64,000 nucleotides of DNA from Spinacia oleracea (taxonomy: Eukaryota > Streptophyta > Magnoliopsida > Caryophyllales > Amaranthaceae). Under the pieces are notes generated by a model. The model worked only from the letters and a program-made list of their open reading frames with translations, ran no database searches and was not told where the DNA came from. This document shows positions 1,772 through 54,900 of this stretch, piece by piece. Position 1 is the stretch's first letter, and each line of letters begins with the position of its first letter. The position numbers were made by a program, and so were the translations under genes. The DNA is taken from contig NC_079491.1 of the NCBI RefSeq assembly GCF_020520425.1, positions 20,513,449-20,577,448 on the forward strand, written 5' to 3'.

Positions 1772-1836
1772 ACTTTCAGGAACTTGACTCAAACAGGGTT
1801 TCCTGTGTTTTGGTGAGTACTGGCTCTGATACCAAC

Positions 1837-3134
1837 TGTTATTCCAGTAGGAACACGCACAAGAGGGGGGGGGTGAATTGTAATTAGATCTTTGATAAAG
1901 TTTCTTGCGGAATTTAAGAAACAATCAAGAAACTGAGAATAGAGAAGACAATAACAACAATTGTGAAAACTTCTTGATACTAATCAAGAAGAGAATTCTT
2001 TTATTATGGTAATGCCTCGATTACAATAATCTCTCCAACACAAGTTCCTCTCAAACTCGTGTTCCTCACAGTAATCTACTTCGATTACAACTCCTTAACT
2101 TCTCTCTCTCAGACTTAAACTCTAAGTCTAAACAGGATAACTCTATCCTTACTAATACAAAATATAATTCGTGTTTGGATAACTCTAGATATTAATAATG
2201 CTTTTGTGAGAATATAAGAAACTTAGGAACTTTGAATTAACTAGGACACAAACTGTTTTAGAAAATCTTAGACAAAACGTTTTTAGGAAAGCAAAAACTC
2301 TCAGAATGTTTGTGTACTTTAAACCAAAAACGATTTCCCTTTTATAGTGTTTATCCTTAGGGTTAGTTCCCTTCAAAACCTCAACTGCTAACTGCCAGCA
2401 CTTTGGTCTCCACGTCCCTTGACTTGAGGAACAAGGGGAAGACCACTTCCCACGTTCAGCCATGAAGCAGTTGGTGATTTGACTCAATCAAACCCTAAAA
2501 CATTTCTTTAAAACAGATTTTATTTATCTACAAAAACTTAGGAGAATTTTTAGGAAAATAAGTTTTGTTTAAATAAAATAAAACGTAAATCTATTTTATA
2601 TTAAATATGCAAAACTTGTTTTTATTTAAGAAATGTTTTCCATAAAAATCGCTTCCAATAAAATAAATGGCCTAATTAAATCATAAGTTCCTTGAGTACT
2701 CTATATACCATTTAGCATAATTAATATTTACATAAAATTCTAAGTACAGTGGACTACCTAGACTTCATGTCTTCCCTTTGTCTGGAACTTGCAACTCAGA
2801 AGCTTCAGACGTTCCAGCCAAGGAACATTGATGAGTTCCTCTCTAGCTAACACAGGAACTCTTGGCTATGAGTCTGTAATAGTTCTTGTGGATATTCGGA
2901 ACTCTTGATATGTAACTGTGTTGCTCCTCTTGTGACTTCAAACTGGAACAGATACAACTTCCAGCTCTGAAACTCCATTGACTGTTCCAAGTGTACCTCA
3001 GGAACTTCACCAGTTTATTCAAGTTCCTATCCTAATAGAAACTTGGGCATATGCCTGTTCAAAGTCATTTAGCAACCATAATCAGGAAGTTTGCAATATG
3101 TGTGTGTGTCATCAACCAAAACATAGGAACAACA
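1837..3134 (-). repeat. 5' LTR of the SIRE-like copia element
   Basis: About 1298 bp. On the + strand it starts TGTTATTCC and ends GGAACAACA, so the ends form a short imperfect inverted repeat with TG...CA termini. Two bases separate it from the primer-binding site. A TATA-like box (CTATAAAAGG on the minus strand) lies near 2340-2352 and fits the LTR promoter. The flanking five bases are TATGA (3135-3139); the partner duplication is outside the window. Confidence 0.75.
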
Positions 3135-27339: not shown

Positions 27340-28725
27340 GGTTCGAACATTAATACTAACATTTTTTGTGATATAAAATTGAGTAATGCATGTGTGCGCG
27401 CGCATGATATGGCACATCGTCATTTCCCTTGCCAAATCACTGTGAGGTGGCATTCCTTGCATTTGAGATTTAATAATTGTATAGATAAGTTGTTACCTTC
27501 AACAAAACATGCATGGAAAATATTATGTTCAATTGCTAATAGAAGGCCGCGCCATTGCAAAGAGCCATAACTTCAATAAAAAGAGGAGACAAAGTTCCAG
27601 GATTGTAGGTTCTACTAATATATTACCTAGGTGATCCCTAATAACAACTTATGTTGTTCATGAGTTGCTACGAACTGACCCATCAAAATTAATTTTGAAA
27701 ATACCGGGAGTATGAGGTGTCCATGCGACGCGAATATGTGGTACATGAAGGATTCACCAGAGCGTCGTGATGACTGATATCATTCAACGAATCTAGACAT
27801 GTGAGCGTATTCATTCCGTAAAAATTCTAAAATCTCTAGTGTAAATTCCCATTGTTGACACAGGAGACTGTCTAAAAATGTAAGCGTTACGAGTTTTTCA
27901 AATACTCCAAATGGATGTGATTATCTTCCTGGTCGGGAGGTTAACATTATGTCGGAGTTCACGGAAAAGTGTAATAACAAAAGAAGATTGCAGATGAGTT
28001 CCAAGCCAAGAATTGAAATCTCCGCATCCCAATATTCTCTAGCTATGGGCAATGAAAAAAATAAATGATCTCGTGTTTCGTTTGGAGTAGCACAAAAAGG
28101 GCAACAATTAAGGATGTCAATATGTCGATAAGATAAATATCCCGAGTTGGGAGGCTATTATGCAACAATTGCCAGATTCTTTTTTAAAAAATTTCGGGGT
28201 AATATCTAGTTCCTTATCCTGGAAAATTCCCACTTGGAGGGAGAACAAAAATTATGAGCTAACCATATAGCAGATTTAACGGTGAACTTACCATTACTAG
28301 TGAAACTCCAATATAGTTCATCTAGTAAATCATTTCCTGGTAATAGGATACCTTTAATAGTTTGCACAACAAATGGTGGAATAATCAAGGAGAGGGTCTG
28401 AATGTCCCAAATTCGATTGTCTTTGGTGAAATGATTGACTGTAAGATTTAGATTTTGGTAACATATGTATCCAAGTTCAGATATGCGACAAGGTTGGTCG
28501 AAAACACCATTTATCAAGTCAGTAAATGACATTAGACGTTGCACCTTTTTTCATCTAAGTCCTTTGTGAATGAGAGTTCTAATTTGAAAGATTTTTTTTT
28601 CCCAGATCGAAGAATCCTTAGTCTTAGATATTTGGAATGGATTGAAAGAACCCATAAATCATTGTGATTAGAAATGATTTTCAAGCCTAACTTAGCTAGG
28701 AAGAGGGCGTCAAAATCGCAGCCAT
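27340..28725 (-). pseudogene. LINE ORF2, 3' part (decayed)
   Basis: Minus-strand remnants in the expected order of a plant L1-type ORF2. DALFLAKLGLKIISN and LWVLSIHSKYLRLR (28777-28650) are the post-RT linker. GKFTVKSAIW (about 28270) precedes a zf-RVT region (about 28190-28040) with LPTRDI and a Cys-containing strand. RNase H-like traces lie further left (27960-27650). There are many stops and frame changes. The more N-terminal LINE sequence (GGIGLRKI) lies beyond the large MULE at 43455-43570, so the MULE interrupted this LINE. Confidence 0.65.
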
Positions 28726-28747
28726 GCATGTATTTGCAAATACATGC
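28726..28747. repeat. Left terminal palindrome of the MULE
   Basis: A perfect 22-bp palindrome built of GCATGTATTTG and its complement. It is followed by CATGGGAAATTTGG inside the element. Confidence 0.65.
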
Positions 28748-29897
28748 CATGGGAAATTTGGTACTTTCGCGCGCCATTTGAAATTAAATCCGTTTGCTTG
28801 CGTGGACTCCGTAACGGGCTTCAACTGCTGACTCCTCACTCCTTACTTGTTTCCTCTCATCTTCCAATCTCACTATCTCTCTCTCCTTGATCGAGTTTTG
28901 TGGTAAACCAAAAAATCGAATTCGAATTTCCAAAAACAATCACTCAAGATTTGTTGGGTTTTTTTCTCGCAAGTAGCACTGAAGTTCTAGTCACTCAAGT
29001 TCTCGCAAGAAGCACTCGGAAGTTGGACGAAATTCTGTTCGTGAAAAAGCCCCAAATTTTCGAGGTATAAACCCTAAAATTGAAATTAATTAGGGTTTTT
29101 GTTTATAAATTTAAAATTATTGTCAATTGTTTATAGATTTGGACATGATACGATTTTTGCATAAATCCTTGAGCAAATGTTTGCATAAATTCGCACTAAT
29201 TTTCCGTATTTAATGCGAGAATGGAATTGTTGATTTCAGTTGTGAATTGCTTTCATGTGATAATGATGATAAAGTGAATGTGATAAATTGCTGGATAACC
29301 CCCCCCCCCCATCTTAAATTAATTTCCCTTGATTAAATTAATTGTTTGAGTTGGTTTCATAATTATGTTTAAATGGTTGAAGTAGTTTCAATTTCTTGGT
29401 TAAATGGGAAATAGTGTTAGGTTATTTGTCCAATAATTTGGTATTGGTATTTGCAATTCATCGAAATAGAAATTGGTAATAACTTTGTTTATAATGAAAT
29501 TCTGATTGATTTTTTTAGAACAAGGTGGTGGCATGCCTTGTTGTGATGGTGGAGGTGGAGGTGGTGGTGGTGGTGGTGGTGGTGGTGGATGGGTCTGCTA
29601 GTTGTGATGTATCGATGTATGATATTTGCAATTCATGACTTTTTATCTTGTATTTTGATTGGTGTTTGGGTAGTCGAAAACCGGTTCGTTGATTTGATTG
29701 AATGCATGGTATTTGCAACAAGCTTGTAAGGGTTGTTGCCATTGTTGTGAAAGTGTTAGGGAACCCCTACCCCCGCTTCTTGTTTGTCGATGTTAGTTGA
29801 ATGTTAATCGATGTTAATCTAGTTTGTGTAGTTTGAGTGTCCTGGTATTAGTTGTGTTAGTTTGACATTCCTGGTTTAATTTTGTGTAGAAGTTAGT
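28748..29897 (+). promoter_or_regulatory. Left subterminal / 5' leader of the peptidase gene
   Basis: Between the left MULE end and the first ATG of the peptidase gene. It contains a CT-rich tract (28850-28890), a C10 run near 29300, and a GGT/GGA microsatellite at about 29547-29589. It presumably holds the promoter and leader introns; no TATA box is convincing. Confidence 0.35.
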
Positions 29898-32800
29898 ATG
29901 GGGAATTCAAAGATGACGAAGAAAGGGGGTGGTTCAAAGAAAGCTGGGAGAACCCCTCCGAAGAAGCATGTTGTGAAACCTAGTGCAAGTGGTAGTAGGA
30001 AGAAGAAGAGGCAGAAGATGGTGTACCAGGAGGCAAGTGAAGATCTAGATGGCGTACAATGCAGTGAGGAGGAATGTAGTGAAGAGGAGTCCTCCTCCGA
30101 GGAGTCCTCCTCTGAGGAGTGCTCTGCTTCACCTTCTGCGTCATCCACGGAAGGGTCAGAAGGTGATTCCTCGTCTTCATCTTCTTCTTCGGAGGAGGAA
30201 GAGCCAAGAAAGAGAAAGAGGAAGAAGTCCTCGAAGAAGGCCTCGAAGAAGGTAAATTTTAGTATTTTAAGTAATACTAAATTATTGTTTTAAATTAAAT
30301 AAGTATTATTTGCAATAAAAATATAAATTTAAATCAATTTAGTATTATGTTAAATAAGCTTTAACAGGTTTGCGTAATATATTTTCAGGTTTCGAAGAAA
30401 AAGAACAAGAGTGCCGGGGAGATTGTCAAGGCACGTAATCGTGTTGTCTTGACGCATTTACGAACTTGTGAAAAGGTAAATTGTGTTATTTATGTTAGAT
30501 TTAACATTTGAGTATTAGAATTTCTTTAGTAATGTATTATAAAAGTTATATAAGTTATAAAAGTTATATGTATTTTTTTTTAAATATTTCTTAATCAGGC
30601 CCCTAAAATTATTTGCCGGGTCGAGTCGTTCGTCAAGTTAATCAAGAAACTGGATGATTCAAGACGGGAAGAAGTAGAGAAAATGGGTTTCTCGGGGTTG
30701 TTGGAAATGAAGTTGGGGAAGTTGGACAGGAGATTCTGTTACTGGTTGATGACCAGGGTAGATGTTGAGGGGCATGTAGAGTTTGGGGATGGGAATGTGT
30801 TCCGGTTTACCCCGCAACATGTTCAAAGGATTTTTGGGCTGCCAATGGGAACGAAGGATGTTCCTGCACCTGTGGCAATTGATTGGAAGGATAAGAAAAT
30901 GGTACGTCCTGCCATTAAGCTATTTAAGATGTACGGTACTGGAGTTGCTGATCCTTCGAAGGATATGGTGTTGTTGGCGAAGGTAGCCAAAGTTGTGGAG
31001 GGGGAGAAAGATTCAGCGGGGGAGGTTATACCTCTAAGTACCCCTGGTGAGAAGCTAGCATTTAGGAATGCATTCTTGGCTGTGGTAGTGGGCCACTTAC
31101 TTTGCCCTACAGCCATGTGCACCAACCTGTCACACAAATTGATGGTTGTTGTTTCGTTGGGTGGTGTGGCAGAGGAGTACGATTGGTGCACGTGGACTTA
31201 TAATAGGCTGATGGAACGTGTGGAAGTGTTTTTGAAGAGTTTTTACGATGATGGTTATGCTCGTGGATGCGGTGGCTGTGTTGTGGCCTTAATGGTAAGA
31301 TTTGTGTCACATTTTAATTTATTTATTTGATTTTATATAATTGCAAATCTAGTTATAATACTTGTTTGACTAAATTTGCAGATTTTTTACCTTGATCGCT
31401 TGGCGGGAACCCCCGTTGATGTAGAACCTTTACCTAGATTGAAGGTTTAGGGGAACCTGGAAGTGAAAAAAGCAATCAAGAGAGACAAGAGAAAAAGATA
31501 CGACTATGGTAGATCCAAGGTAATACAAAATTGGTGGATGTTTGATTGAAAAAAATTTAGTTACGTTGTAATTAACGAGGTACTTATGTATTTGCAGTCA
31601 AAGAAGGTGGTGTATGATGGTGAAGTGAGAAACAGTGTTAGTGGGCTGACAAACAAGGAAGTTGACCGGCGGATTGATATTGTAGATGAGCCGTTGACCG
31701 GCAAGGGCACGGAAACTGATCCTAGTAGGGCAGATGTTGGCAATGCAGGGGGAAACGCTGGTGTTTCCCTCTTAGGAAATTTAAGTAGAGATAGTGCCGC
31801 TGTACAAGAACTGGCGCATCAGGTAATTTATGTGCAAATCAGGAAACTACTTTAGGTTGAATTTTTGTGTTATTGTTGGTTAGGGTTAGTGTAATTTATG
31901 TGCAAACCCGAGCGTATGATTGTTTTGGATGTGTGCAATGTTGAGTTGTTTTGGTGCACCATGTTTGGTTTGTGCAGGTACTTGAGTTGTTCAAACCCGA
32001 GTTGGAGCGTATGATTGTGAATGTTGTGTCCGAGAGGGAATGGTTAGCGAGCGGTAGTGGTATGGGTGTTGGTGATGGCAGTGGGTGGGGTGGTAGTTTG
32101 GTTGGCACTGGGGGGTTTACTGGCAGTGCTGGCAGTGGTTGGGTTGGGCCTCGTGGTGGGTTGGTTGGCACTGGTGGGTTGGTTGGCACTAGTGGGTTCG
32201 GCACTAGGCGGTTTGTTGGCAGAGGTGATTACGGTGTTGGTACGAGTATGGGAATGGGAAGAGGGCCTGGTGGTATGGGAATTGGAAGAGGGCCTTTTGG
32301 TTTTCCTGGGGGTATGGGAAGAGGGGGTGGTGATGATGTAAGTGTAGGTCTAGGTCTAGGTCCTCCTGGGTATGAGAACGCTCCTCGTCAAGGCTACGAT
32401 GCTGCTGCTCGAGCGCCGATCGGCTTTAATGCATTTGCAAGTGGAAAGAATTCAGGAGGATCAGGAGGTTCAGGAGGATCAGGTGGAAAGAACAATGCTG
32501 GTGGGGGTTACTCAGCAGGCGATTCTGGTTCGTTCCACTATAACATTGGTGGTGGGGGTGGCGGTGTTTCAGCTGCTGTTTCGAACGGTCTCTCGACTGC
32601 TGCGGCACCTGTTCAGGTCGAGGAAGGTCCTGTTGGGATGGTTGGAATGGTGGCAGCTTCGTGTGTGAAGCTAGCTAATCAACTTTCGTCTGAGGAGATG
32701 CTAGACTCAACAACTGGATCTTCAAAGAAATCAGACGCCGCAGCCGTTCCACCGCAGCCGTTCCACCAGAAAGTTGAGCAAGTGACAAATGTTGAGCAAG

Positions 32801-34234
32801 TGACAATTGTAGATAAGGGAAAAGAGAAAGAAAAAGAGAACGAGCCAGCAATTACTCCAGTCCCAAGAGAGTGACTAAGCCTGCGTTGTCTTCTGTTGTG
32901 TATGAATTGTCTACGAATCCACAGAGAATTACATCGTTTGCAAACCGTGTCCTTGTATTCATCCAATCTTGGCGGTCATCAAGGAACATCCCCACCTGGT
33001 ATGAATATTTAAATAAATCGTTTACGTGTATTTATACTTATTGAATGTGGCTCTAATTGTAAATGAATTGTATATAGCCCGGGACCAGAGATGATTAGCT
33101 GTGATGGTGGGGTGGCTGATCAAAGGGATTGTTACCACACATTGATGGCGAGCCAATGTGTGAGTACCGGGTATGTTCTGATGGCTTCCTTTCTGTACAC
33201 TAAGGTGTGGAGGGTGAAGGAGTTCGTTGGAAAGAGTGAAAGGATATTGCTGACTCCTGATTTTGCCGTAAGTATTGTCGGGTTAACTTTATTTTTCTTT
33301 CTCATCTATGTTGGTTTGTATTATCTGATTGTTGTTTTTCTTGGTTCAAAGTTAAGGGTATTGGAACCCAGAGACTCCAACTACATCATAGGCACCAAGT
33401 ACGGCAAGGTTCTGAAAAACATCCCGTTTACTTCTCTAGCGACGGTATGTTTTTTGGTTTAATATATGCGTGCTTAATTTTTAAGTGAAGCAGTTATAAC
33501 GGGACACCTGTGGTACAGGTTTTTGTCCCCGTACTGGTCAAAGAACATTAGTGGGGTGTTTGTTTTGACATTAAGGGGAAGGCAATAAGATTGATTGATT
33601 CGATCTTAAAAAACCCAGCGGAGAAACATGCCGATAACCTTAATGATCTGGTAAATGTTGAGGACTTGACTTTGTACTGATTTTCATAAATTTGTAGGAG
33701 TTTGTTGAGGAGTTAAAAATGTGAATGTTGGTATACTCGTACCAGGTTAATGCAATGGACACCATGTTCGAGGTGAATGTACCTGGATACCAGGCAAGGA
33801 CAATGAGCAATTGGTGTACTGAGGTCATCAACATAGCAGGCAATGTGGACAAGTAAGTATATATGTGGTTTATTTGTATTCTTAATCGTGCCTGTAAAGT
33901 TTATTATTTGTTTGACTTAAAAATGTGTAAATGTGTTGTAGTAAGTCGTGCGGGGTTATAATGTTAAGCTGCATGAAGGCATGTGCGCCTCGGTTCGTGG
34001 CACAATATGAAGTGGTAAGTATAATTTTCTCAACTTCAACTTCAAGATTTTGTGTGGTCCAACATAGTAGTAGGACTTACATTTTTCCTGATTTTGTAGC
34101 ATGATTTGGTGAAATTAAGAACGACGTTAATGCTTGACGACTTGCTGTCGGAATACAATGACGTCAGTTACGCCATGCTTGAAGCAATGCTGCCTCGAGC
34201 TAGGATAAGGGGGGGTAGTGATGGTTTGCCCTAA
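29898..34234 (+). pseudogene. MULE passenger gene: Ulp1-like (C48) cysteine peptidase, decayed
   Basis: Twelve exons: 29898-30251, 30389-30475, 30599-31294, 31382-31519, 31598-31822, 31978-32998, 33078-33267, 33352-33444, 33519-33650, 33746-33852, 33942-34014, 34100-34234. Order: a basic/acidic low-complexity N-terminus; a conserved segment with RRFCYWLMTRVD and PQHVQRIFGLPMG, seen in MULE-borne plant proteins; a long Gly-rich tract (exon 6); then the peptidase. The triad is visible as His in KEH, Asp 17 codons on in LIDS, and Cys in NKSCGV. It is broken by TAG at 31448-31450 and at 33549-33551 (right after the catalytic His; TGG expected at both) and a frame change near 32840-32870. The native role would be SUMO/ubiquitin-like deconjugation; what it does for the element is unknown. 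Confidence 0.75.
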
Positions 34235-35925
34235 ACTGGTTCTTGGATGATTCATAGTATTTATAATTTGCAGGATAATGTGGGTGTTGGATAATTTTGT
34301 GATCATAGTTGTTGGATAAATTGTTATTAATTTGTAAATTTGGTAGTTGGTTGAATATTTAGGATGTATGTTGTTGGAAGACTTTGTGATCATGGATAAT
34401 ATTGTTGTTGGAAGACTTTGTGATCATGGACAAAAATTTGTGATCATGGATAATATTGCAGGATGAATATTTCAGGCTTCAGGGTGTATTTTTTTGCAGG
34501 ATGCATATTTCCAAGTTATATGCAAAATATGGCCCAAAGTCTATGCAAAATATGGCCCAAATTATATGCAAAGTATGACCATATTCGCACCATTTTTTTC
34601 AAAAAACAGTACCAATTTTGTACCCTTAACACCATAATCATACACTTAAATACCAATTTATATAACACGAATACCATTTTTAAATAATGAGTACCATTCA
34701 ATGTAAATGAATTGCAATGAGTACCATTTTTGTAACAAAGAACACCATTGTTCTATTAATAAAACCATTTTTGATGACTATGTACCATATTGGAGAAAAT
34801 AGTGGCACACTATTTATAAAGTAATACCATTTTTCATAAAACAATACCATATATAAATGGTTAGAGTGAAGTATGGTTTAATTTTAGAAAATGATTAGAG
34901 TGAAGTAAAGTATGGTTTAATTTTGAAATTAGGATTAATTTCTATAATTAAGAGTGTAAATATTGTTTGAAATTAAGGATATGCTTTAACGATTCGATTT
35001 ATGATTCATATAAGATTCATGGTTGTTTATTTGAATAAGTATTTTTTGGATGATTCGATTTATGATTTATAATTATAATTGTGAGAATTTTGAATAATGA
35101 TTTGATTATGATTCAATTTCACATAACGATTTCACATAATGATTCGATTATGATTCAATTTCATGAATGATTCAAATTTACGATTCACATAAGACTTATG
35201 GTTACTCAAGCGAACATGGTTCCCTCTAAATCATTTGAATATGGGTGATTCGACGTATGATTCCATTTGAAGAATCGACTTAAGAATAGAATGATGGTTA
35301 TTCAATTTGATGGTTAATGACTCGATTTAATGGAATAATTAGGAATCATAGTTTAATCAATAAAATATGGTGAATACTTAATAATCAATCCAATTACAAT
35401 TGCTATATTATGATTTTAATTATAAAACATAACTTTTCAAAGATAACTTAATACCATTATAGATATCTTAATACCAACCTTATTAAAGTAACTACCACTT
35501 TCTTTAAACATAACACCACTTTTGACAACACAGTGCCACTCTTTTTATAAATGAATACCACTTTTACCTATTTGAATACCATTTTTATGTATTTTGAATT
35601 AAATTTGGAAAATGGTTAAGAGTGATATATGGTTAATTTTAAATTTAGGGTGTGTAATTATAGGTGAGAGTTAAATCATGGATAATGATTCGTATAAAAT
35701 GATGAATTATGATTCACGATTCGATTCTACGATGAATTCAAATTAATGATTCAAATGTAGAGTTTAATAAGGTGAATGATTGATGATTCAATTCCATTCC
35801 ATATTGAACTAGGATATTCGGTAATTATGTGAATAAGGATGATTGGATTCATGGTTTAATGTTTTGATTAATTAATTCGATTTGGGGTTTAATGGTTTAA
35901 TGTTTAATGTTTCAATTACTTAATG

Positions 35926-35975
35926 GGGTTTAGGGTTTGGGGTTTAGGGTTTGGGGTTTGGGGTTTAGGGTTACA
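35926..35975. repeat. Interstitial telomere-like repeats
   Basis: About seven units, alternating TTTAGGG (the plant telomere repeat) and TTTGGGG, in the AT-rich middle of the MULE. Too short for a true telomere. Confidence 0.75.
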
Positions 35976-36271
35976 TGGTGTAAAATTTTATTCTTTTTTT
36001 TAATGCCATTTTTTGGGATGACTGATACCATTTTTGACAATATAATACCATTCTAGATGTATGTTAAACCATTTTTCAGAAATCAATGTCATTTTTAAAT
36101 TATTAAATACCATTTTAGGAATTGGTAATATTGTCAATTTTGAAGTTAGAGTTAAGATTTTTAATTTTGAATTTATAGTTAAAAAATATACTTAAGAGTG
36201 ATATAAGATAAAATGGTTAATTATTTGAATAAGGTTGACCCTAAGGTTGATAGATTATTCGATTTCTAATT

Positions 36272-36653
36272 CGGCATATGAATCAAAAATCATTCTAATG
36301 ATTCGATATACGATTCGATACTTTTACTTATAAATAATGATTTGATTATGATTCGATTTCACATCATTCGAATAATGATTTGATTATGATTCGATGAATT
36401 AATGATTCGATTATGATTCGATTTCACGAATGATTCAAACATGGTTACTCAAGCGAACATGGTTCCGGCATATGAATAAAAAATCATTCTAATGATTCGA
36501 TATACGATTCGATACTTTTATAAATAAAGATTTGATTATGATTCGATTTCACATCATTCGAATAATGATTTGATTATGATTCGATGAATTAATGATTCGA
36601 TTATGATTCGATTTCACGAATGATTCAAACATGGTTACTCAAGCGAACATGGT
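36272..36653. repeat. Tandem duplication of about 190 bp in the MULE
   Basis: Two adjacent copies, 36272-36465 and 36466-36653, each from CGGCATATGAAT to CAAGCGAACATGGTTC. They are nearly identical apart from a few small indels, so this duplication is younger than the surrounding decayed repeats. A related piece of the same end is at about 35208-35223. Confidence 0.75.
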
Positions 36654-38071
36654 TCCCTTTAAATCATTTTAATAAGGGTTAGTGACTCGATTTAATGATT
36701 CGATTTATGATTCATGGTTAGTGACTCGATTTAATGGAATAATTGGACTTAATCAGGAATCATAGTTTAATCTATAAAATTCATGGTTTAATAATCAATC
36801 CAATTACAATTGAAATGGATTTTATTTATAACTTTTCAAAGAATATTAAAGAATCCCATAATAAAGATAATTTAATACCATTATTAATGAAGTAACTACC
36901 ACATATGTTCATTTTAACACCACTTTATATAACTGAATACCCTTTTAACCTATTTGAATACCACATATGTTCATTTTAACACCACTTCAATTTGGAAAAT
37001 GGTTAAGAGTGATATATGGTTCACGTAAGATTCATGGTTAATCATTTGAATAAGGATGATTAAGGATGATTAAGGATGATTGGATTCATGGTTTAATGAA
37101 TTGATTGATTTACTATGATTCATTCTACTATGAATTATGAATTACGATTCTAAGATTCGATTCCATCAAAGGTATGAATTGCGATTCATGATACGATGAA
37201 TCGAGAGTGACATAAGGTAAATGGTTATTTGAATAAGGATGATATATTATTCGATTTCAAATTCGGCCTATGAAATCTTCGGCTTAAAAATCATTCTAAT
37301 GATTTCTTATGATGTCGATATACGATTCGATAACAATACTCGATGTGATGGAACAATTAAACTACTTAAATATTTCATAAAATAAAGTACTTAAATATTT
37401 CATAAAATTAAAGTACTTAAGTATTCATAAAATATTTTAGAAATTAGAATTTTTGATGATATTTTAGAAGTTATATCTTGAATAAGACCTTTAAATGAGT
37501 ACCACTTTTGTAACAGGAGTATCATTTTTATGTAAATGAATACCATTTTTTGTAACTGTGTACCACTTTTATGTAAACGAATACCATTTTCATGCAAATG
37601 AGTATCATTTTTATGGGCCATTTTTATGGGCCATGCAATATAATTTCATTTTTATGTAAATGAATACCATTTTTATGTAAATGAGTGCCATTTTGGATCG
37701 GATAGTACCATTAGGCCTATTTTGAATGCTTCCTAATAAAAAAACAAGGTATGTTTGAATACTACAATTTTGAATATAGGCCTATTTTGAATATGGGCCT
37801 ATTTTGAATATGGGCCTTTGAAACTATGCACTAGGATAAGGATAATGTAAAAATGTACCAAATCAAATGTTTAAAGTCTCCCACAAACAAAGGAAAATTA
37901 ATTCACAAACACAACAACTATTCCAATTGAGTAAATCACAAACACAACAACTATTCCAATTGAATGAATTACAAGTCCTTAACCTTCCCCATTTCCTCCC
38001 AACAAGATATTTTGTATAAATCTAGGAACCACCATCGTCGCCTTTGAACCACCATCGTTGCCTGAAACAGG

Positions 38072-41000
38072 TTACATAGAAACACTTCCATTTTGCGTAA
38101 ACGAATGAAAATGGTTATTATAAACAATAGCAGTGTTGTTGTTGATGTTGTTTAGTGGACGAAACTGACCTACGGAGGAACACCCTTGATGACAAGATGA
38201 CGACCCAGGATGGTACGAGTTTATAACAGGGATCAGATGGCCCATTTGAGAAGGATGGCTCACTTCAGAAGGATGGACAATTTGAGAAGGATGACCTATT
38301 TGAGTAGGATGGCCCATTTGACAAGGATGGCCCATTTGAGGATGCACCATTTGAGAATGCCCCGATTGAGGAGAACCAAACGTGACATGGTCCCCAGACG
38401 GGTCTATGTAGCCATCAATATATCCATCTCCAACATATGCTCGTTGTTGTTGATATACACATCCGGGAGCTGAAACAGGCCGGGCATAGTACCTAAAGGA
38501 ACCATCCAACATTTGTATACCACCAACACTTTGTACAAATTCCTGAAAACAACAGTGAAAATAAAGATCCAACTTGTCCACTTAATTTCCAACTGAAACA
38601 GACTAATAGACTTAATTTCTGAAAATAAAGATCCAACTGCCAAAACCAAATCAAATCAAATCAGAAAGCTTAATTTCCAAATCAAAACAGACTAACAGTG
38701 AAAACAGACTAACAGACCAACTGCCAAAACCAAATCAGAGACTTAATTTCCAACTACCAAAACCAAATCTTCTGGTTCTAGTTTACTAATATACTTAATT
38801 TCCAACTGGTTCTATTTTACTTAATTAACTAGCTTAATTGTTTAATTCTTCTATTTTACTTAATTAACTAGCGTAAATGGTTCTATTTCTATTTCTTAAA
38901 CTATAACTAGCTTAATTAACTAGCTTAAACTATATTTCAGACGAAAGATGAACTTGTATAATGAAAGCTTTGTAAATTACCTGTTGGGGTGGCTGGGGAT
39001 GCACGAAGTTTTGTTGCGGTTGTTGTTGCTGCGGATGCACTATAAGTTGTTGCTGCGGATGCACTATAAGTTGTTTCTCATCAACCTTCTTGCTCTTCCG
39101 TGGCTTCCTCGGTGCCGCAGGCTTCCTTGGCGCCGCTGTCTTCCTCGGTGCCGCTGCCTTCCTCGGTGCAGCCTTTGGTTGAGCTGGAGGAGGAGGACAT
39201 GGAGGACAAGGAGGGGGACATGGAGGAGGACATGGAGGAGGACATGGAGGACAAGGAGAAGAAGGACCAACATCATTGGTTGAGCTAGGAGTTAGAGTCT
39301 CTCTGTTCATTAGTTGTTCTTGGGTAATTGGCCGCTTCAGACGCTCGGTACATGACCTATACCGGTAACTAGTAGTCTTGTGGGCCGGTCTTGGAGGTAT
39401 TGGAGGATCTAACAAAGGAAAAACCTCATTGCCATTTGCTTGGACCCCATGTAGGCCCACATCTATGCTTTCAAGGCTAGGACTGCCACCAACATCATCA
39501 TCATCATGATCAAAGCCACCTGTTAAACCAGCTGCAATTGCATCCATTGCATCTATTCTATCATTGAAGCTTCCTGATAAACCCCGAGCAAAGCTGCTAG
39601 ATAAACCTCCAACGCTTCCCGATACACCACCACCGGCACAACTTCCTTCATCCTCATTCGTTTGTGGGAAATCAAACACCATCGTACGTCGTACCCCAAT
39701 AGGTTGTAACTGGACAACGGATAAGGGGGTCAATTTCGTACCACCTTTCTCCAAACACACAGATGACGGGGTACCAACTACAACATCCTCATTTTTCCTT
39801 TTCCTGTCAAGCATTGCAATCTTCTCATCCAAACGCATTGCCAACAAGTGAGATATTTCAACAACAACATCCATCGACTCTTTGTAGGTAGCTGCCCTTG
39901 AAGGTAAAGGCTCAAACAACACCATTAGCTTATCGTACCTGTCAATATTAAACATTATATGTGAACAACAGATACACATTGACTACATGTACACATTATG
40001 AGGTATATCAGCTTTAATAAAATAATAATTGTTTTAGTAAATTAATAATTCTAACCTACACACAACTTCTGTCTTCAATGGGTCGTGGTACATCACCCTA
40101 ACCTTCGTATGCTTCCTTTCAACATCTTTCCGCCAACGACGAAGTATGTACTTGCCAGGAATTCCAGTTTGGTTATTCAAGTCATAAACCAATATCATAT
40201 GCCTACACATTATACCGTGACATTCAAAGTGCTTACAATCACAAGATGCTTCCTTGGTAACGTAATTATACGTTGCAACAAACTTCGTCTTATGCTTCGT
40301 AACAATCTCCTTCCTTGCGTGTTTAGGCTTTATCCAAACCCTATCCTCAAGCTCGTACTCTTCAACAGACTCATCCAACATTTTCTTGCTCAAACACCGC
40401 ACATACAGTACCCTACTACACTCTCTTTGGACCTCATGAAATTTGGCGTCCGTGTATAATTTCTGGAAAAGTTCCTCGGCTGGGAAACAGGTGACAATTT
40501 GCCTTAGATTTCTCACAGTGCTCGTATCGGCCATAGTTTCTTCATTTGCCCTTGCCTCCATTGCTTCACAGTAAGCCTCAACAAACTCATACAAATGAGT
40601 ATGCTTGTGTACAAATTGATCAAAAAAACTGTTTATACTTTCAACTCGTTGGGTCGTCTTCATGCCAGCCCAAAATAAATGCTTCAAATACGCAGGAACC
40701 CACATGTTCCTTTCCGCATACAACCCTGATCAGATGAATTTCACCAACAACTCAGGTAACTGATCAGTTGCACAGATCATAACCACAGATCAGGATCACT
40801 GATCAGGTAAACTGATCAGAGCACTGATCAGGAACATTGATCAGGAACACTGATCAGGTACACAGATCAGGTACACTGATCAGGTACACTGATCAGGTGC
40901 ATTTATCAGGTACACTGATCAGGTGCACTGATCAGGTACACTGATCAGGTGCACTGATCAGGTGCACTGATCAGGTACACTAATCCACTGATCAGGTACA

Positions 41001-43158
41001 TTGATCAGGTGCACTGATCAGGTGCACTGATCAGGTGCACTGATCAGGTGCACTGATCAGGTGTGTGCACAGATCAGTGGTGGTGTGCATCAGTTTAGAT
41101 TATTTTTTTCACATTAAATATACAATTCATCTCCAAAATATATATATAATTCACAGACGGAGAATGTACCTTCAAGCCAATCATCATCAACCTGGTACCT
41201 CTCCATCACTGTTTCCCAATTTAATTCGAACTCATCACATGTTAGACTATCATATATTGCCCGCTCCAGGTCTACCTTTAAATCGGGGTACTCTACATGC
41301 GTTCCAAGCTTCCTACTAAACTTCTGAAGAATGTGCCATATGCACCACCTATGACATGTATTGCTCATGGTTGTTCTCAAAGCCCTCCTCATCGTGGGAT
41401 CTTGATCAGTCAATATCCCAATTGGGGCTTTACCACCCATACATTCTAACCAATTGCCGAAAATCCACTCAAATGTGTCACTATTTTCATGCGAAACAAG
41501 CGCACATCCAAGTAATATGCTCTGACCATGATGATTTACACCAACAAAGTTCGCAAACGGCATTTTATATTTATTGGTCAAGTACGTACTATCAAAGCAG
41601 ACAACATCACCAAACTCCTCATAAGCAGCTCTACTACGAGCATCAACCCATAAAGCATCCTGCAACATCCCTTTTGCATCTTGCCGGTACACGTGAAAAA
41701 AATCAGAATTATCTGCTTTCATCTTCTTAAAATAGTCATACATTGCCCTCGCATCACCACCACTTGTCCTTGCCTGCCTCACCTTCGCAACCACTTCATT
41801 AAGATCCTTCCGTAGGAAAGGCATTCTACCTCTACCATTCCGTTGCACCGCCATTAAGTTATAAGTTTGAGCTACAGACATACCAGATTGCGAACATACA
41901 TTCGCTTGTCTCAACACATGAGGATTTTCCCTTAAAAACTTCTTCCGGTTATAAGCAATAATCCTATACTTACTAGGGGTGGGGTGATGATTTTCATGAA
42001 CCATTACTGCTCTACGTATCACCCACTCTCCTAACTTATTTACACTTGCAAATACATATACGGGACATTGACATTTCTTAGACTTGCGTACCCCACTCCC
42101 AATTACTTCATGGAGTGAATCGGATGCCTTGCGCCTTCTTTCCGGCACACCATAGCACTCACAAGTCCACAAACAATTACGCTTCTCTTTCCCCATTCCT
42201 TTCTCTTTATCAGAACCAACCACAGATTTCACCGTACCACAACGACGGGCAATACCAAAACCCTTTTGTTTGGCATACCCCCTAAACTGTTCTTCAATCT
42301 CCTCCCAACAACGAAACACCATACCAACCTTCAATTCAAGAACTTCCTCCTCTTCCCCGTAGGCAGTTACTACCATTCGCTTTTTTGGGGTTGTGAAACA
42401 ATCCTCACCACCCTCCTACAATTACATTCAAAGCCAACCCCCATCACAATTACCAATCTCAACCAACCAATTCCAAACAATTCCAAACCAGAACACACAC
42501 CAATATCATGCTAAAAAAAATCATCCTTTATAATCTTTTTGGAAATCTTACATTATTATTAATTACCATCAAATTTATAATCTTACATCATTAATTAGCA
42601 TCATTTCCAAGTTCAGTATTAATTTTAATGATTAATTAATGCATTCAATCATTCATTTTAATGATTAATTCAACAATCAACAAATTCAGTAAATCAATAA
42701 ATTCATACCAACAAACCAATAGATTAATACCAATCAACACATTAACCAATCGCAATAAATTTCAAATTACGAAAAACAATCAGATTTCACAAATCCCTAA
42801 CACATGATTGCTACAAAATCCATAAAACATCAAAAATTGGAGTGAAGTGCCATTGAATGCCATTTCCAGAAACATATGAGTTTCATTTCCATGAAAAATC
42901 AATTGGATAATTTATAGAACAGATCTAGATTCATACCTCTTCGTCGGAGGAGGATTGTGGTTCATACCTCCATATGAAGTCTTCTTCTTCCTCTTCTCCT
43001 TCAACCTCGCGACTACCTTCACCATTTTCGTCACCATTTTCGTCACCAATTTCGTCACTAATTTCATCACTAATGCCCTCCATTTCCGAAATTAACATTA
43101 TGGAGCAACCCCCAAATAATATCTCAACAAACGTGGATGAAGAAAAATAGGAGAACAA
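38072..43158 (-). CDS. MULE transposase, FAR1-type with MULE and SWIM domains
   Basis: Transposase of the large MULE, binding its ends and cutting and pasting the element in the nucleus. Five exons in consistent phase (minus order): 43158-42937, 42415-41170, 40725-40062, 39938-38981, 38542-38072; 3561 bp, 1186 aa if the start is at 43158. ATGs at 43098 or 43083 are plausible too. Exon 1 is acidic. A FAR1-type domain lies at about 105-200. The MULE catalytic core has Asp in FDSTYLTNKY (about 349), Asp in LTDQDPTMRR (about 411), and a likely Glu in RVESINSFF (about 518). The SWIM zinc finger CDCKHFECHGIMCRH is at about 651-665. The C-terminal 400 residues are low-complexity repeats. No stop or frameshift was found, unlike the peptidase gene nearby, so the element may have been mobile recently. 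Confidence 0.85.
38200..38375 (-). repeat. Coding minisatellite: Gly/Val-His-Pro hexapeptides
   Basis: An 18-bp unit repeated about eight times in the last transposase exon gives hexapeptides such as QMGHPS and QIVHPS. The DNA units (GGATGGCCCATTTGAGAA) have diverged but stay in frame. Confidence 0.8.
39000..39265 (-). other. Repeat-built tail of the transposase
   Basis: Within transposase exon 4, in protein order: a Cys/Pro tract of CPPP units (about 39265-39180); a basic tract of four AAPRK-like units followed by RKSKK (39175-39080), which looks like a histone H1 tail; and Gln-rich IVHPQQ repeats (39070-38985). All in frame. Basic Ala/Pro/Lys tails commonly bind DNA without sequence preference. 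Confidence 0.75.
40735..41070. repeat. Intronic minisatellite, unit about 12 bp
   Basis: About 22 copies of the unit CACTGATCAGGT with small variants (GTGC or GTAC as spacer) fill most of transposase intron 2 (40726-41169). The unit contains the palindrome CTGATCAG. The array touches the splice acceptor: the last CTGATCAG (40726-40733) supplies the intron-ending AG. Confidence 0.85.
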
Positions 43159-43427
43159 GAAGAAAAAAATGGGTTTGGTTTTTTTTTTTCGGATGAATTA
43201 TGGTGGTGTTCGAAAATGGAGTTCGAACAATTGGTGGTGTTCGAAAATGGTGTTCGAAGATTTGGAACCCAACACTCAGTAAGAAAGAAGAACTAAAAGA
43301 TAGGGGGTTTAATGATTGCCAACTCAGCAATGCCAAATCACCATCCCGTTTTACAATTTCACTATTCCGTTTTCCATTTCCCCCCAAAATTATTTCACAA
43401 TTACATTTATATTTTTTTTGGGGGGTT
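43159..43427 (-). promoter_or_regulatory. Right subterminal region, transposase promoter area
   Basis: About 270 bp between the transposase start and the right MULE end. It carries two close copies of GTGTTCGAAAATGG (43203-43250) that could be transposase-binding or promoter repeats. No clear TATA box. Confidence 0.35.
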
Positions 43428-43451
43428 GGCATGTATTTGCCAATACATGCC
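43428..43451. repeat. Right terminal near-palindrome of the MULE
   Basis: A 24-bp near-palindrome, GGCATGTATTTG followed by CCAATACATGCC, the counterpart of the left end at 28726-28747. Confidence 0.6.
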
Positions 43452-43615
43452 AGACATGTATTTGGACTTCCTCAGCTAGGAAAGCAGAGACAACTGTTGT
43501 TATTTTTCGCAAGCCTATGCCTCCCTAAATGATCTTAGGTTGACCAATTTTATTGCACGAGGCCATGATAATATGATATCATGGGAACACCTTTCTTGTG
43601 TTTTTGTGGCTAGAT
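43452..43615 (-). pseudogene. LINE ORF2 fragment right of the MULE
   Basis: The minus strand encodes QPKII and, after a stop, GGIGLRKI, the conserved segment after the RT thumb in plant L1-type ORF2. It belongs N-terminal of the piece at 27340-28725. Weak LINE-like sequence continues past the hAT element to about 45080. It is decayed. Confidence 0.5.
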
Positions 43616-43830: not shown

Positions 43831-44240
43831 CTCTTTTCTTTTTAAACTTTGTCAATATTTTTATTTTTGTGTTTTATGTTGAGTTTATGTACGTAGTATT
43901 AAACTTTTAGTACTCAGTTCTAATTGATATTATATGTGAGCAAAAAAATGCTTATTTGATGGACTATGGGTTTATAAGTTTTAAAATAGATAAGCATTTT
44001 AATGAAGACAAAATTAACTGATATTTTTATATGCTCAAAATGAACATTTATTTTCAAAAAATATATCTTTACGCATATTAATCATCTTGTAATTAAGTGA
44101 GTAGTTATTTTATTGAAATATTTCAAGAAATCGACTAGAGCCGAATTTTGAAATTCTAGGATCATGCAAAGGAGATATAGTAAGTTTTTATTGATTTGAA
44201 TTCAACAATATAATGGATTTCACAAAAAAGAAAAATATTA

Positions 44241-44932
44241 CTTCCTCTGTTCCGGAAATATCGCACCATTTGTTTTTTACACTATTCACACTACGAGTTT
44301 GACCATTTGTTGTGATTCGTACGTGTTTGGGCTCCCAATTGAATACCAATTGGGCCATTAAGTTCAAAGCCCAAAGGCTCACAGCAACAACATCAAACCC
44401 ACTACAGTCCAAAAGGCTATTCAGCCGCCAATCAAGGCCCAAGGCCCGCTTGCAATAAATGACCTAAGGGCATTTATTGTACAAACACTATAAATAAGCC
44501 GTCATGGCTCACTTACCAAGGTACGTCCATTTCACGCCTTAAGACTACTCTTCTAGAGAACTTCTCTCTCTAGAATCCGAGCATTGTTCTTACTTAGGCA
44601 TCGGAGGGGCTTTCCTCGTAAACACCCCCGAGGCTAGTAACTTGTTTATTGTGCAGGTTGATTTGGATACAACACATTCAAGCTAGCAAGATCTTCAACA
44701 CACACAAAAAGGGCCTTCATTCGAAGCCCATTGTTTCATCCACTTCAACACCGGAACAGTACGTAAGGAATTTTAGTCATGTGGGATTATGTTAGATTTG
44801 TATCGATATATATTTTCTAAAAATTAATTTTTTATAATTTTTACTTGAATACGATGTGAGATATTATGAGTCAAAGTAAAGGTTAGATGAGTAAAAGTCA
44901 ACCATGGTGCGATATTTCTGAAACGGAGAAAG
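44241..44932. mobile_element. Stowaway-like MITE interrupted by a solo LTR
   Basis: TIRs begin CTTCCTCTGTTCCGGAAATA and end TTTCTGAAACGGAGAAAG, with GCGATAT/ATATCGC words inside, flanked by TA at 44239-44240 and 44933-44934. Without the LTR and its duplicated site it is about 252 bp. Confidence 0.8.
44324..44758 (+). repeat. Solo LTR inside a MITE (fossil)
   Basis: 435 bp starting TGTTTGGGCTCCC and ending ACACCGGAACA, with a perfect 5-bp target duplication GTACG at 44319-44323 and 44759-44763. It contains CTATAAATAAGCC near 44490, a TATA-like box. Small LTR, probably Ty3-type or TRIM; the family is not certain. Confidence 0.82.
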
Positions 44933-45024
44933 TATTTCAGTTAAAGACGTATTATTTTGGAAGGGCCCAAATCCCTTATTTTGCCTAGGGCCCTCAAAAT
45001 ATCAGGACCGGGCCTGATTCATAC

Positions 45025-45875: not shown

Positions 45876-45942
45876 TAGTATGTAGGCGCTAATTAAAAGC
45901 TTGGAAAGTGTTAAAAATGATTTTTTTTTGTACGGAGTAGCA

Positions 45943-48900
45943 ATGAAAATGTCTAACAACAACGCAGAGTCCTCTGTTTTGAATATAGCATTTTACCCAT
46001 GGTTTGCCCTTGGCCACCTTACATCTTTCCTCCGCTTAGCCAACAAACTCGCCGAAAGAGGTCACAAGGTCTCCTACTTTCTCCCAACTAAAACAAGTTC
46101 AAAACTAGCTTCTCACAACCACTACCCCGACCACCTTACTTACGTCCCCATCGACGTCCCGCACGTCGATGGGCTCCCTCTCGGGGCCGAGACGACCAAC
46201 GATGCGTCCGTCTCATCCGCGCCCCTTATCATGACTGCCATGGACATGACTCGTGATACTATCGAATCCCATCTAGCTCTTCTAAAACCCGACTTGGTGT
46301 TTTATGATTTTGCGTATTGGATCCCTGAGTTGGGTCGAAAACACGGGTTCAAATCGGTTCATTACATCACTGGATACATAGCAAGATATGCTGGTTTTGC
46401 CGCGTACATTAAGGCAACCCAGTATAATTCCGTTGACCCTCCATTGACCCTACCGTCGCCGGAAGTTTTTCGACGGCGAGCTCATGAAGCCAAGGTGATG
46501 GCTAGTATAAGTAAAAAGGCATTCGGACTAAAAGGTAAAACGTTGTTGGAGATGTTTAGCATATCTTTCCAAGAATGCGATGCTATCGGAGCCAAGACCT
46601 GTAAAGAGATGGAAGCGGAATATAGTGAATATGTTGAGAATATTTTAGGGAAGCCTGTGCTCCTTGCAGGACCTGTTGTCCCTAAAACGCCATCTTCTAT
46701 ACTCGATGACAAACTCCATGGATGGCTACAAGGTTTTGGTGCTGCTACTGTCATATATTGTGCACTTGGAAGTGAATGTATTCTTCAACTTAACCAATTT
46801 CAGGACCTACTTCTTGGCCTAGAGCTCACAGGTGTGTTGTGTTTACATATTCATTCATTTTATTTTCTTTAATATCTATTACATTTCCGATCCACCAAAT
46901 ATGATCTGCATCGGTTTATAACTCAAGTATAAGTTACGAGGAAGTATTTCCGGATATCTGATATTTGCTTGTAAATGCATATCATAGGAAAAGACAAAAT
47001 AGGAAAAAGGACGAAAATTGAATGGTACTCCCTCCGTCCCGGAATACTTGACCTGTTTTCCTTATCGGGCCGTCCCTTAATACTTGACCTGTTTCTAAAA
47101 ATGGAAATATTCTAACAATATTATATTATTTCTCACTCCACCCCTATTAACCCACCTACCCCCCACTCCATACAAAAAATAATTAAAAATTCAACCCCTA
47201 CTCTCCCCCAACCCCACCCCTTTACACATTTCCCACTAACTACATTAAAATAATACCCCACTATCAACTACTACCTATTAAATTAAATAAGTCAATTCAA
47301 GTCCCTTAAACTCTGTGCCGGTCAAACCGGGTCGAGTATTCCGGGACGGAGGGAGTACTTTTTAAAACAAAAATGGTACTTCTTTTTTTTTTTTTTACAG
47401 AATGATATTTTTCTAACATGAATGATAGTATGATACTTTCTTGATATTTATATTGTTATACATATCTGATATTCGAAAAAACGACCCACTGCCTCCGTCC
47501 CATCATTCTAATATTTTAAATCTCAACCCTTCATTTTTTTTACAAAACAATCTTGTGTTTTGATTTATTTGACTTTCACAATACCAATCTCGTCCTTTGA
47601 TTTATTTGACTTTTAGAAATATACAAATATCTCAATTTTCAAATCTAAACCAATTACAAACTACTTTATTAAAAACTGTTCATAAAAATTGTAACGGTTT
47701 GAATGACATATTTGCTAACACATTAGTTTAACGGATATTTCATGAAATATCCCCGAGTTTTGCCTTAATTCACCAAATGCCCATCAAGTTCCAATAATTC
47801 ACCAAATACCCCTCACAAATGACTTGATACCCCAAATACCCCTCCATGACGTCATCATCCTCATAATCAACCAATTACGATCTAATTACTCACATAATCC
47901 CTAATTAACCTCCTAATTAACTCACTCATTAACCCATTAACCCACCCATTAACATATTAACCCACCCATTAACCCATTAAGTCACCCATTTCTTTTTCTT
48001 TTCTCACTCCCCTTCCTTATTCCATTAACCCACCACCCACCTCAAGGATTTCCATGGCTACCCCTTTCTTCACTCTCTCTCCTCACCACCTTCTTTCTTC
48101 CCTGACCTTCCCAGATCTTTCTCTCTCCCTCCTTCCTTCTTCCATTTACGGATAATTCACACATCAATTGCAAACCCAACATACAACAAATCGGGTGAAG
48201 AATAATAATACCCAAAATCGAGCATTGAAGAATTGGGTGAAGAACATGGCTAATTTTGATGAAAATGAAAGGGGGTTTATGCGAAAACAGGTGTTTTTTG
48301 TTGAGGAAATTGAGTTTGGGATTGATGGAGGAAAGAGAACCCAACTTCGTTCATGTGGGTTGTTCTCTTCAATTCTTCCGCCGTCGATTTCGGTTGCTTT
48401 TTGTGGTTCTGGATTTGACGACGGCGACGATTGTTCTTTTTGATTCTTCCGCCGTCGATTTTGGTGTGGTGTTGTCGGAGGAGGCTGGTGGTGTTGGTGT
48501 AGTCGGAGGAGGAGATCCGGCGTCGATTTTGGTGTGGTGTTGTCGGAGGAGGCTGGTGGTGTTGGTGTTGTTGGAGGAGGAGATCCGGCGTCGATTTTGG
48601 TGTACGTGATGTTGTCGGAGGAGGCTGGTGGTGTAGGTGTTGTCGGATGAGATCAGATGATGATGATGAGTGGCGGCGGTGGTGGTAATGTAGGGAGGGT
48701 GGACGTGAGGGAGGAGGAAAAGGTGAGGGGCGACAAATGGTAAATGGGGACGAGGTGGTGGCGGCGGTGATGGGGTCGAGGAGGGAGAAAACGGGGGCGA
48801 TGTGGTGGCGGAAGAAGGGAGACGAAGAAGGGGTGGTGGCGGAAGAAGTCAGAGGAAGAAGATGAGTTAATTAGGAAAAAATGGGTTAATTAGGAAAAAT

Positions 48901-51900: not shown

Positions 51901-54900
51901 GATAAACAAAAAAACATGAAACTTAAAATGTGGTAAATAAGAAAAAATCTCTATTGTATTATTATATTTTTTTTAGATATAAATTATTAAATACTTTAGT
52001 TGTCTTGCAGTTTTCATTTACTACGAAATTTTATATTGTTAAGAAGTTTGACGGTGGCATTCTAAATGTCGTAAAGGAAGACCATTATAGTATAACCCTG
52101 TGACAAGTATTGCAATATCTGATGTTCTCATTATAAAAGACAGGTATGGGATCCGGTAAGAACATCTCCCTTATGTAAGAACACTTCTTACGGTAAGAAC
52201 ACTTTTACACTCTCAATGTTCTAAATTTATTCAAGCATGTTCTAAATTTTGTTAACCATATTCTAAAATTATTCAAAAATATTCTAACTTTGTTCAACCA
52301 TGTTCTAAAATTATTCAATCATGTTCTAAATTTATTCAACCATGTTCTAAATTTTCAAGCTCATGTTCTAAATTTATTCGACGATGTTCTAAATTTGTTC
52401 GACGATGTTCTAAATTTATGCATGCATGTTCTAAATTTATTCGACAATTTTCTTAATTTGTTCAACTATGTTCTAAATTTATGCATGCATGTTCTAATTT
52501 TATTCAACCATGTTCTAAATTTAGAACAAGTCAACACATATACATATATAAATGTTCTAAATTTTCAAGCTCGTGTTCTAAATTTATTCAACGATGTTCT
52601 AAACTTGTTTAACCATATTCTAAATTTATCCAACCACGTTCTAAATTTATTCAAGCATGTTCTAATTTTATTCAACCATGTTCTAAATTTTCAAGCTCAT
52701 GTTATAAATTTATTCAACCATGTTCAAATTTTATTCAAACATGTTCTAAATTTGTCCAACAATGTTCTAAATTTAGAACATAGAACCTAGTCAACACATA
52801 TACATATATACATGTTCTGAAATTTCAAGCTCATGTTCTAAATTAATTCAAGCATGTTCTAACATTTATTAAACATTTTATAAATTTATTCAACCATGTT
52901 CTAAATTTATTCAAGCATGTTATAAATCCAATCAAGCATGTTCTAAATTAATTCAAGCATGTTCTAAAATTATTAAACATGTTATAATTTTCAAGCTCAT
53001 GTTCTAATTTATTCAAACATGTTCTAAATTTATTCAACGATGTTTTAAATTTGTTGAACAATGTTCTAAATTTATTTAAGCATGTTCTAAATTTATTCAA
53101 CAATGTTCTAAATTTAGAAATGAGAACCTAGTCAACGCATATACCTATGTACATGTTCTAGAATTTCAAACTCGTGTTCTAAATTAATACAAGCATGTTC
53201 TAAAATTATTAAACATGTTATAAATTTATTAAACCACGTTCTAAAATGTTATAACATGTTATAAATTTATTGAACATGCTTGAATAATTTTAGAACATGT
53301 TTGAATAAATTTATAACATGTTTAATAATTTTAGAACATGCTTGAATTAATTTTGAAATACGGTTGAATAAAGTTAGAACATGCTGAAAGCTTGAATAAA
53401 TTTAGAACATATTTGAATAAAGTTAGAACATGCTTGAATAAAGTCAGATTATAATAAAGTTAGAACATGCTTGAATAAAGTTAGAACATGCTTGAATAAA
53501 GTTTGAACATGCTTGAATAATTTGAGAACATGTTTGAATAAATTTATAACATGTTTAATAATTTTAGAACATGCTTGAATTAATTTTGAAATACGGTTGA
53601 ATAAAGTTAGAACATGCTGAAAGCTTGAATAAAGTCAGATTATGCTTGAATAAAGTTAGAACATGTTTGAATAAATTTAGAACATACTTGAATAAATTTA
53701 GAACATGATTGAATAAATTTATAACATGTTTAATAATTTTAGAACATGCTTGAATTAATTTAGAACATGAGTTTGATTTTTAAGAACATGTATATATGTA
53801 TATGTGTTGACTAAGTTCTCATGTTCTAAATTTAGAACATTGTTGAATGCATTTAGTACATGCTTGAATAAATTTAGAACATCGTTGAACAAATTTAGAA
53901 CATCGTTGAATAAATTTAGAACATACTTGAATAAATTTAGAACATGAGTTTGAAAATTTACTTGAATAAATAAATTTATTATTTATTATATATATATATG
54001 TTGACTAGGTTCTCATGTTCTAAATTTAGAACATTGTTGAATACATTTAGAACATGCTTGAATAAATTTAGAACATCGTTGAACAAATTTAGAACATCGT
54101 TGAATAAATTTAGAACATGCTTGAATAAATTTAGAACATGCTTGAATAAATTTAGAACATGAATTTGAAAATTTAGAACATGGTTGAATAATTTTAGAAC
54201 ATGGTTTAATAAAATAATAAAAAATAAATAATAAAAAATAAATAATAAATAATAAATAATAAATAATAAATAATAAATAATAAATAATAAATAATAAATA
54301 ATAAATAATAAATAATAAATAATAAATAATAAATAATAAATAATAAATAATAAATAATAAATAATAAATAATAAATAATAAATAATAAATAATAAATAAT
54401 TAATAATAATAATAAATAATAAATAATAAATAATAAATAATAAATAATAAATAATAAATAATAAATAATAAATAATAAATAATAAATAATAAATAATAAA
54501 TAATAAATAATAAATAATAAATAATAAATAATAAATAATAAATAATAAATAATAAATAATAAATAATAAATAATAAATAATAAATAATAAATAATAAATA
54601 ATAAATAATAAATAATAAATAATAAATAATAATAATAAACAATAAACAATAAACAATAAACAATAAACAATAAACAATAAACAATAAACAATAAACAATA
54701 AACAAAAACAATAAACAAAAAAAATTAAAAAAAAAATAATAAATAATAATATTAATACTAACAAAAAAAAAATTATTATTATTTATTTATTTATTTATTT
54801 ATTATTATTCATTATTTATTTTTGTTGTTAATTATTATTTTTATTATTTATTATTTATTATTTCCTCTCTCCGTCCCACGTTCCTTGTTACACTTTCTTT

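Follow-up and report, generated by a model that had tools for sequence, protein, structure and literature searches.

Terminal inverted repeats (TIRs) are typical of Mutator-like elements (MULEs), though some MULEs lack them. MULEs that carry a ULP1/C48 gene have been published from grapevine, melon, rice and Arabidopsis, and Jittery-like elements are among them. In the available portions of the grapevine work, Jitvine-1 and Jitvine-2 are Jittery-like MULEs of 11.9 and 14.4 kb, in some Jittery-like families ULP1 sequence lies downstream of the transposase, and MULEs, whether or not they have TIRs, contain ULP1 in either orientation (PMC2528002). The plant Jittery sub-group, as given in the available part of a survey, has FAR1 toward the N-terminus and SWIM or CCHC toward the C-terminus of the protein, TIRs of 39-292 bp or none, one ORF, and a target-site duplication (TSD) entered as 'not indicated/8 bp' (PMC6446971, Table 1). 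According to the text available for the maize elements Jittery and TED, both have TSDs of 9 bp (PMC9569675).

We conclude with high confidence that the window (the whole 64,000-nucleotide stretch of Spinacia oleracea DNA that was analysed) holds a complete Jittery/FAR1-type Mutator-like DNA transposon of a plant genome, with the MULE-superfamily features of a MULE domain, a 9-bp TSD and TIRs. Like Jitvine-1 and Jitvine-2, the element has a transposase that, by domain order, is Jittery-like, and it is of comparable size, but it has 47-bp TIRs and a 9-bp TSD, whereas neither TIR nor TSD is listed for the two grapevine families in the available text (PMC2528002). Kaonashi (KI) MULEs of Arabidopsis, with their ULP/KIU gene, have a ULP1/C48 gene opposite to the transposase, as the spinach element probably does; in contrast, KI elements are described in the available texts as non-TIR with a mudrA gene, while the spinach element has TIRs and a transposase that is FAR1-type by domain order (PMC13317346, PMC2528002). 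It differs from the plant Jittery sub-group as tabulated in having two genes and a 9-bp TSD (PMC6446971). The 9-bp TSD is shared with Jittery and TED, Jittery being the namesake of the branch in which domain order would place the element, but the available text gives those elements TIRs of 200 bp (PMC9569675), and Jittery is described, in the text available, as having the transposase gene alone (PMC9168764). The Jittery pattern fits except for the second gene, for which the grapevine paper provides a precedent, and the element therefore belongs to an already published MULE type; it is a good specimen and no new type. The available text on the Amaranthus palmeri EPSPS cassette mentions a Ulp1 gene and MULEs, and no such element was found in it (PMC5240378).

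A preliminary description had reported a large MULE whose transposase seemed intact, which our analysis supports, but had placed its ends at 28726 and 43451. Those positions are wrong: their flanks mismatch, and they fall short of the element's ends by 23 bp on the left and 22 bp on the right, at an internal palindrome of 22-26 bp that each end contains. The true ends are 28703 and 43473, and the features that define them are as follows.

28703 to 43473, unstranded: whole MULE, 14,771 bp, from the TIR and TSD scan
28694 to 28702, unstranded: left target-site duplication, AGCTAGGAA
43474 to 43482, unstranded: right target-site duplication, AGCTAGGAA
28703 to 28749, plus strand: left terminal inverted repeat, 47 bp
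43427 to 43473, minus strand: right terminal inverted repeat, 47 bp
28726 to 28747, unstranded: perfect 22-bp palindrome inside the left TIR (the left end of the preliminary description)
43427 to 43452, unstranded: 26-bp palindrome, 24/26, inside the right TIR (the right end of the preliminary description)

We scanned pairs of ends up to 60 bp from the earlier ones for an exact flanking repeat of 8-11 bp (57,600 pairings of two ends with a repeat length). An exact repeat was present in 34 combinations, among which 28703/43473 had the best TIR (36/47 matching, compared to 19/47 for the next). The TSD at these ends is 9 bp and identical at 9/9 positions, with AGCTAGGAA on both flanks, while the 47-bp TIRs are imperfect (77% alike); the inverted pair 28703-28749 and 43427-43473 was also recovered by a repeat search around the element. 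As a yardstick within the window, such a 9-bp flank was common to 10 of 200,000 random pairs of places, and at least 30 matches were seen in 0 of 20,000 random 47-base pairs. A different target duplication, CATGTATTTG (28737/43454), was ruled out, with TIR matches at 9/47 positions.

Two stretches flank the insertion.

27400 to 28693, minus strand: stretch with a LINE relic left of the insertion, far limit unset; zf-RVT match at about 28136-28029
43483 to 43575, minus strand: LINE-like frame on the other side of the insertion, upper limit unset

When the flanks are joined without the element, a single LINE-like frame on the minus strand, GGIGLRKITTVVSAFLAKLGLKIISNHNDLWVLSIHSKYL, spans the junction, and we take GGIGLRKITTVVSAFLAKLGLKIISNHNDLWVLSIHSKYL to represent the C-terminal region of a LINE-type reverse transcriptase of plants. 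The zf-RVT match (28136-28029, about 560 bp beyond the junction) has E 2.9e-5 and 25.1 bits, just below the cut-off of 27.5. The joined junction pieces (70 and 47 residues), a 114-residue relic piece (28550-28209) and an RNase-H-like relic piece of 42 residues gave no Pfam match. Since the joined frame and the zf-RVT match both point to a LINE, yet the relic has stops, one of them upstream of the junction, the MULE most likely landed inside a LINE that is now decayed.

The transposase gene lies on the minus strand.

42937 to 43098, minus strand: exon 1, from the ATG
41170 to 42415, minus strand: exon 2, with the FAR1-like part at 42283-41984 and the MULE domain at 41605-41321
40726 to 41169, minus strand: intron 2, mostly a 13-bp tandem array with TGATCAG (40752-41062, 24.5 copies)
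40056 to 40725, minus strand: exon 3, with the likely catalytic Glu at 40642-40640 and the SWIM finger at 40252-40187
38981 to 39938, minus strand: exon 4
38072 to 38542, minus strand: exon 5, with the stop codon

As reported earlier, the five exons join in phase without a stop, although over 1,168 codons and not about 1186; all four introns are GT-AG (4/4), and the remaining two frames of the joined exons have 61 and 120 stops. None of 20 alternative AG acceptors for intron 2 gave an in-phase, stop-free join. The 13-bp array in this intron supplies many decoy AGs.

FAR1, MULE core and SWIM parts had all been said to be present, and for the MULE domain (PF10551) this is clear (E 1e-29; 103.3 bits, cut-off 27.6), but the Pfam matches to SWIM (E 0.0014; 18.5 bits, cut-off 19.6) and FAR1 (E 0.0099; 17.0 bits, cut-off 28.1) both fall below their cut-offs. 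A ZSWIM1-3 RNaseH-like match was also found (E 8.1e-8). These two sub-cut-off matches flank the MULE domain, FAR1 on its N-terminal and SWIM on its C-terminal side, an order that would place the element with Jittery. The protein has D, D and E within CFDSTY, TDQD and QRVESIN, residues that we take to be catalytic, and the SWIM pattern is intact. A search of the transposase against solved structures gave one chance-level match (E 0.49), scans for its relatives gave 21 pattern matches and 0 relatives in genome contigs and 1 pattern match and 0 relatives in viral contigs, and an AlphaFold2 model of exon 2 made without alignments (mean pLDDT 32.2) was uninterpretable.

The two TIRs are not equally alike along their length. 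The inner 24 bp are palindromic (22/22 left, 24/26 right) and identical at 23/24 positions between the ends, whereas the outer 23 bp are identical at only 13/23. Allowing up to 3 mismatches, the 22-mer has two sites in the window, which are the two TIRs (chance expectation 0.00), and a scan of a viral contig collection gave 0 matches. That the palindrome is better kept than the outermost ends suggests that it is a putative transposase binding site. In our proposed mechanism, the DDE transposase would bind the element ends, most likely at the palindrome common to both TIRs because of this difference between inner and outer parts, and perhaps as a dimer; it would then excise the element and reinsert it with a 9-bp staggered cut.

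A palindromic motif has already been published as part of the TIR of Muta1, an active MULE of Aedes aegypti, so we do not claim the palindrome as new; Muta1 is also similar in its TSD of 8 or 9 bp (PMC5225508). By the available account, however, the Muta1 palindrome is 10 bp, imperfect and terminal, while that in the spinach element measures 22-26 bp and lies 20-odd bp in from the end, and Muta1 differs further in its 145-bp TIR with 12-bp subterminal repeats, its length of 3.2 kb and its one 504-residue transposase (PMC5225508).

The second gene runs toward the transposase gene on the plus strand.

29898 to 34234, plus strand: passenger gene, its 12 exons placed by eye at splice signals, with a divergent C48-like C-terminal part at 33079-34234
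31448 to 31450, plus strand: in-frame TAG in exon D (31382-31519)
33549 to 33551, plus strand: in-frame TAG in exon I (33519-33650), immediately following the residue taken as the catalytic His in the C48-like domain

The sequence of the C48 peptidase passenger of the preliminary description is present, but Pfam gives no match for the C48-like part, whether it is split into pieces or the stop is replaced by X, and the plain reading of the passenger contains the two in-frame stops. A phmmer search of the C48-like part against solved structures gave 0 matches. Nonetheless, the segment running from the presumed His to Asp-Ser is in ungapped register with yeast Ulp1 and SENP2, and of 100,000 shuffles of this segment, 8 (Ulp1) and 0 (SENP2) reached its score. 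Among 127,888 six-frame positions it ranked first against SENP2 (32; next 30) and second against Ulp1 (27; a chance peptide scored 28). Against C48, hhalign of the passenger to a two-sequence profile, with the register unchanged, returned a probability of 7.6% (E 0.0046). A Cys-Gly pair lies further downstream, and six residues before the Cys is an Asn at the place of the Ulp1 Gln, a residue to which we assume a role in Ulp1. Thus, judged from sequence, the C-terminal part of the passenger is likely C48-like, and the convergent passenger would be a ULP1/C48-like gene of a type recurrent in plant MULEs. Because of the two stops, one of them directly after the presumed catalytic His, this copy of the passenger probably makes no protease; in our proposed mechanism it would be decayed and unneeded for movement. 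AlphaFold2 without alignments gave an uninterpretable model for exon C (mean pLDDT 40.7).

Recent activity of the element, which had been suggested earlier, is possible: a perfect 9-bp TSD and the open transposase frame are compatible with it, but searches of the remaining window sequence turned up no further copy (blastn at E 1e-3; with tblastn, two matches at chance level, E 3.9 and 6.2), and the passenger has its two stops. We considered that this might instead be an old dead copy whose transposase is open by chance, a reading that concerns activity only and leaves the identity of the element unaffected, and that we regard as a serious possibility while somewhat doubting it. The passenger stops fit such a copy, as do TIRs with only about three quarters of their positions matching. 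If both genes decayed equally, the chance of finding both stops in the passenger is 0.22, and the difference between the genes is non-significant; therefore, the contrast between them is no proof of selection on the transposase. Moreover, the divergence implied by the two passenger stops, about 0.0145, is consistent with none in the transposase. Against great age, the transposase has no stop despite 474 single-base routes to one, and the TSD has stayed perfect. If rates are equal and the gene model holds, the absence of stops limits neutral divergence to less than about 0.019 (5% level), an upper bound from a simple neutral model, and no date.

We also weighed the view that the passenger is not decayed at all, and that weaker splicing skips both stops, the product being shorter and dead as a protease yet still of use. 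Both stops would be lost in frame through use of a GT at 31445 and an AG immediately preceding 33552, and the frame change near 32865 could be bridged by two candidate introns, because of which we claim no frameshift there. However, joining without stops requires a weak donor and loses coding-like sequence that includes the presumed catalytic His, and we consider this view unlikely.

Between the two genes lies one further feature.

34235 to 38071, unstranded: AT-rich non-coding middle, 27.6% GC, with ATGATTCGAT and AATACCATTT repeats

All window copies of ATGATTCGAT (13/13) and AATACCATTT (7/7) are inside this middle, and all those of ACTGATCAGG (15/15) are inside intron 2 of the transposase, with the caveat that the motifs were chosen post hoc, once the arrays were visible. 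The shorter AATACCA has 21 of its 32 window copies in the element and 11 outside, and the shorter TGATCAG has 7 of 47 outside.

According to the available text, the VANC anti-silencing protein of Arabidopsis VANDALs targets motif arrays in non-coding parts (PMC5735166), and a review, in its available portion, notes a Ulp1 domain in some VANC genes (PMC13317346). The spinach element is similar in that a second gene adjoins the transposase and short-motif tandem repeats occupy non-coding parts of the same element (PMC5735166). In contrast, no DUF1985 match was found in the parts of the passenger that were searched (exons A, C and the C48-like part with Pfam at E up to 1; exons B-D joined and the C48-like part at E up to 10), and the passenger reads as broken. 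Furthermore, the VANC21 and VANC6 motifs given in the available text differ from the motifs seen in this element (PMC5735166). The resemblance is a parallel of layout only. By analogy, it could be supposed that a Jittery/FAR1-type MULE evolved a VANC-like anti-silencing module independently of the Arabidopsis VANDALs, in which the C48-bearing gene family would be the DNA-binding protein, the ATGATTCGAT, AATACCATTT and ACTGATCAGG arrays its targets, and a copy with a broken passenger would rely on intact relatives; we think this quite improbable. If the passenger and arrays were a VANC-like system, this would suggest that transposons outside VANDAL arrived at the same silencing escape.

Finally, we think it very improbable that the locus is a domesticated FAR1/FRS-type host gene next to an unrelated C48 gene, with no transposon, since, despite an order of FAR1, MULE and SWIM as in FHY3/FAR1 proteins, matching TIRs and a TSD enclose both genes and break the LINE-like frame, and domesticated copies are generally without TIRs and TSDs in the available account (PMC2528002).

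As a Jittery/FAR1-type MULE, the element adds a TIR and a TSD of a kind unlisted, in the available text, for comparable grapevine families (PMC2528002). With its exact ends, its perfect TSD in a LINE-like relic and its open transposase, it is a usable reference copy, and its TIR and palindrome sequences are probes for relatives in the host genome.

Most of intron 2 (40726-41169) of the five-exon, minus-strand transposase gene is occupied by a tandem array of a 13-bp unit bearing TGATCAG (40752-41062). Because the intron consists mostly of this array, it holds 21 AGs, and only the last of these gives an open in-phase join.

Within the non-coding middle of the MULE, we also noted a tandem duplication (36272-36656) in which a 190-bp unit is present in 2.0 copies with 96% matches. 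An inverted repeat with 31-bp arms (44239-44269 and 44904-44934), which are 87% complementary and spaced 634 bp apart, lies a short way to the right of the MULE; this pair is possibly a small transposon. At the window edge, a Copia-type gag frame with a zinc knuckle (2-1924, minus strand) is open and continues past the edge.

Right of the MULE, two plus-strand coding parts resemble a single UGT79-type glycosyltransferase: the first (45886-46872) has a UGT79B30-like protein as its closest solved relative (E 4.8e-79), and the second (55293-55805) has a UDPGT match (7.2e-10). The gap of ~8.4 kb between them contains simple-repeat stretches, and LLFIIYY repeats form a long simple-repeat frame there (53979-54782). 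The two parts look like a glycosyltransferase gene split by a giant intron or one that has been interrupted.
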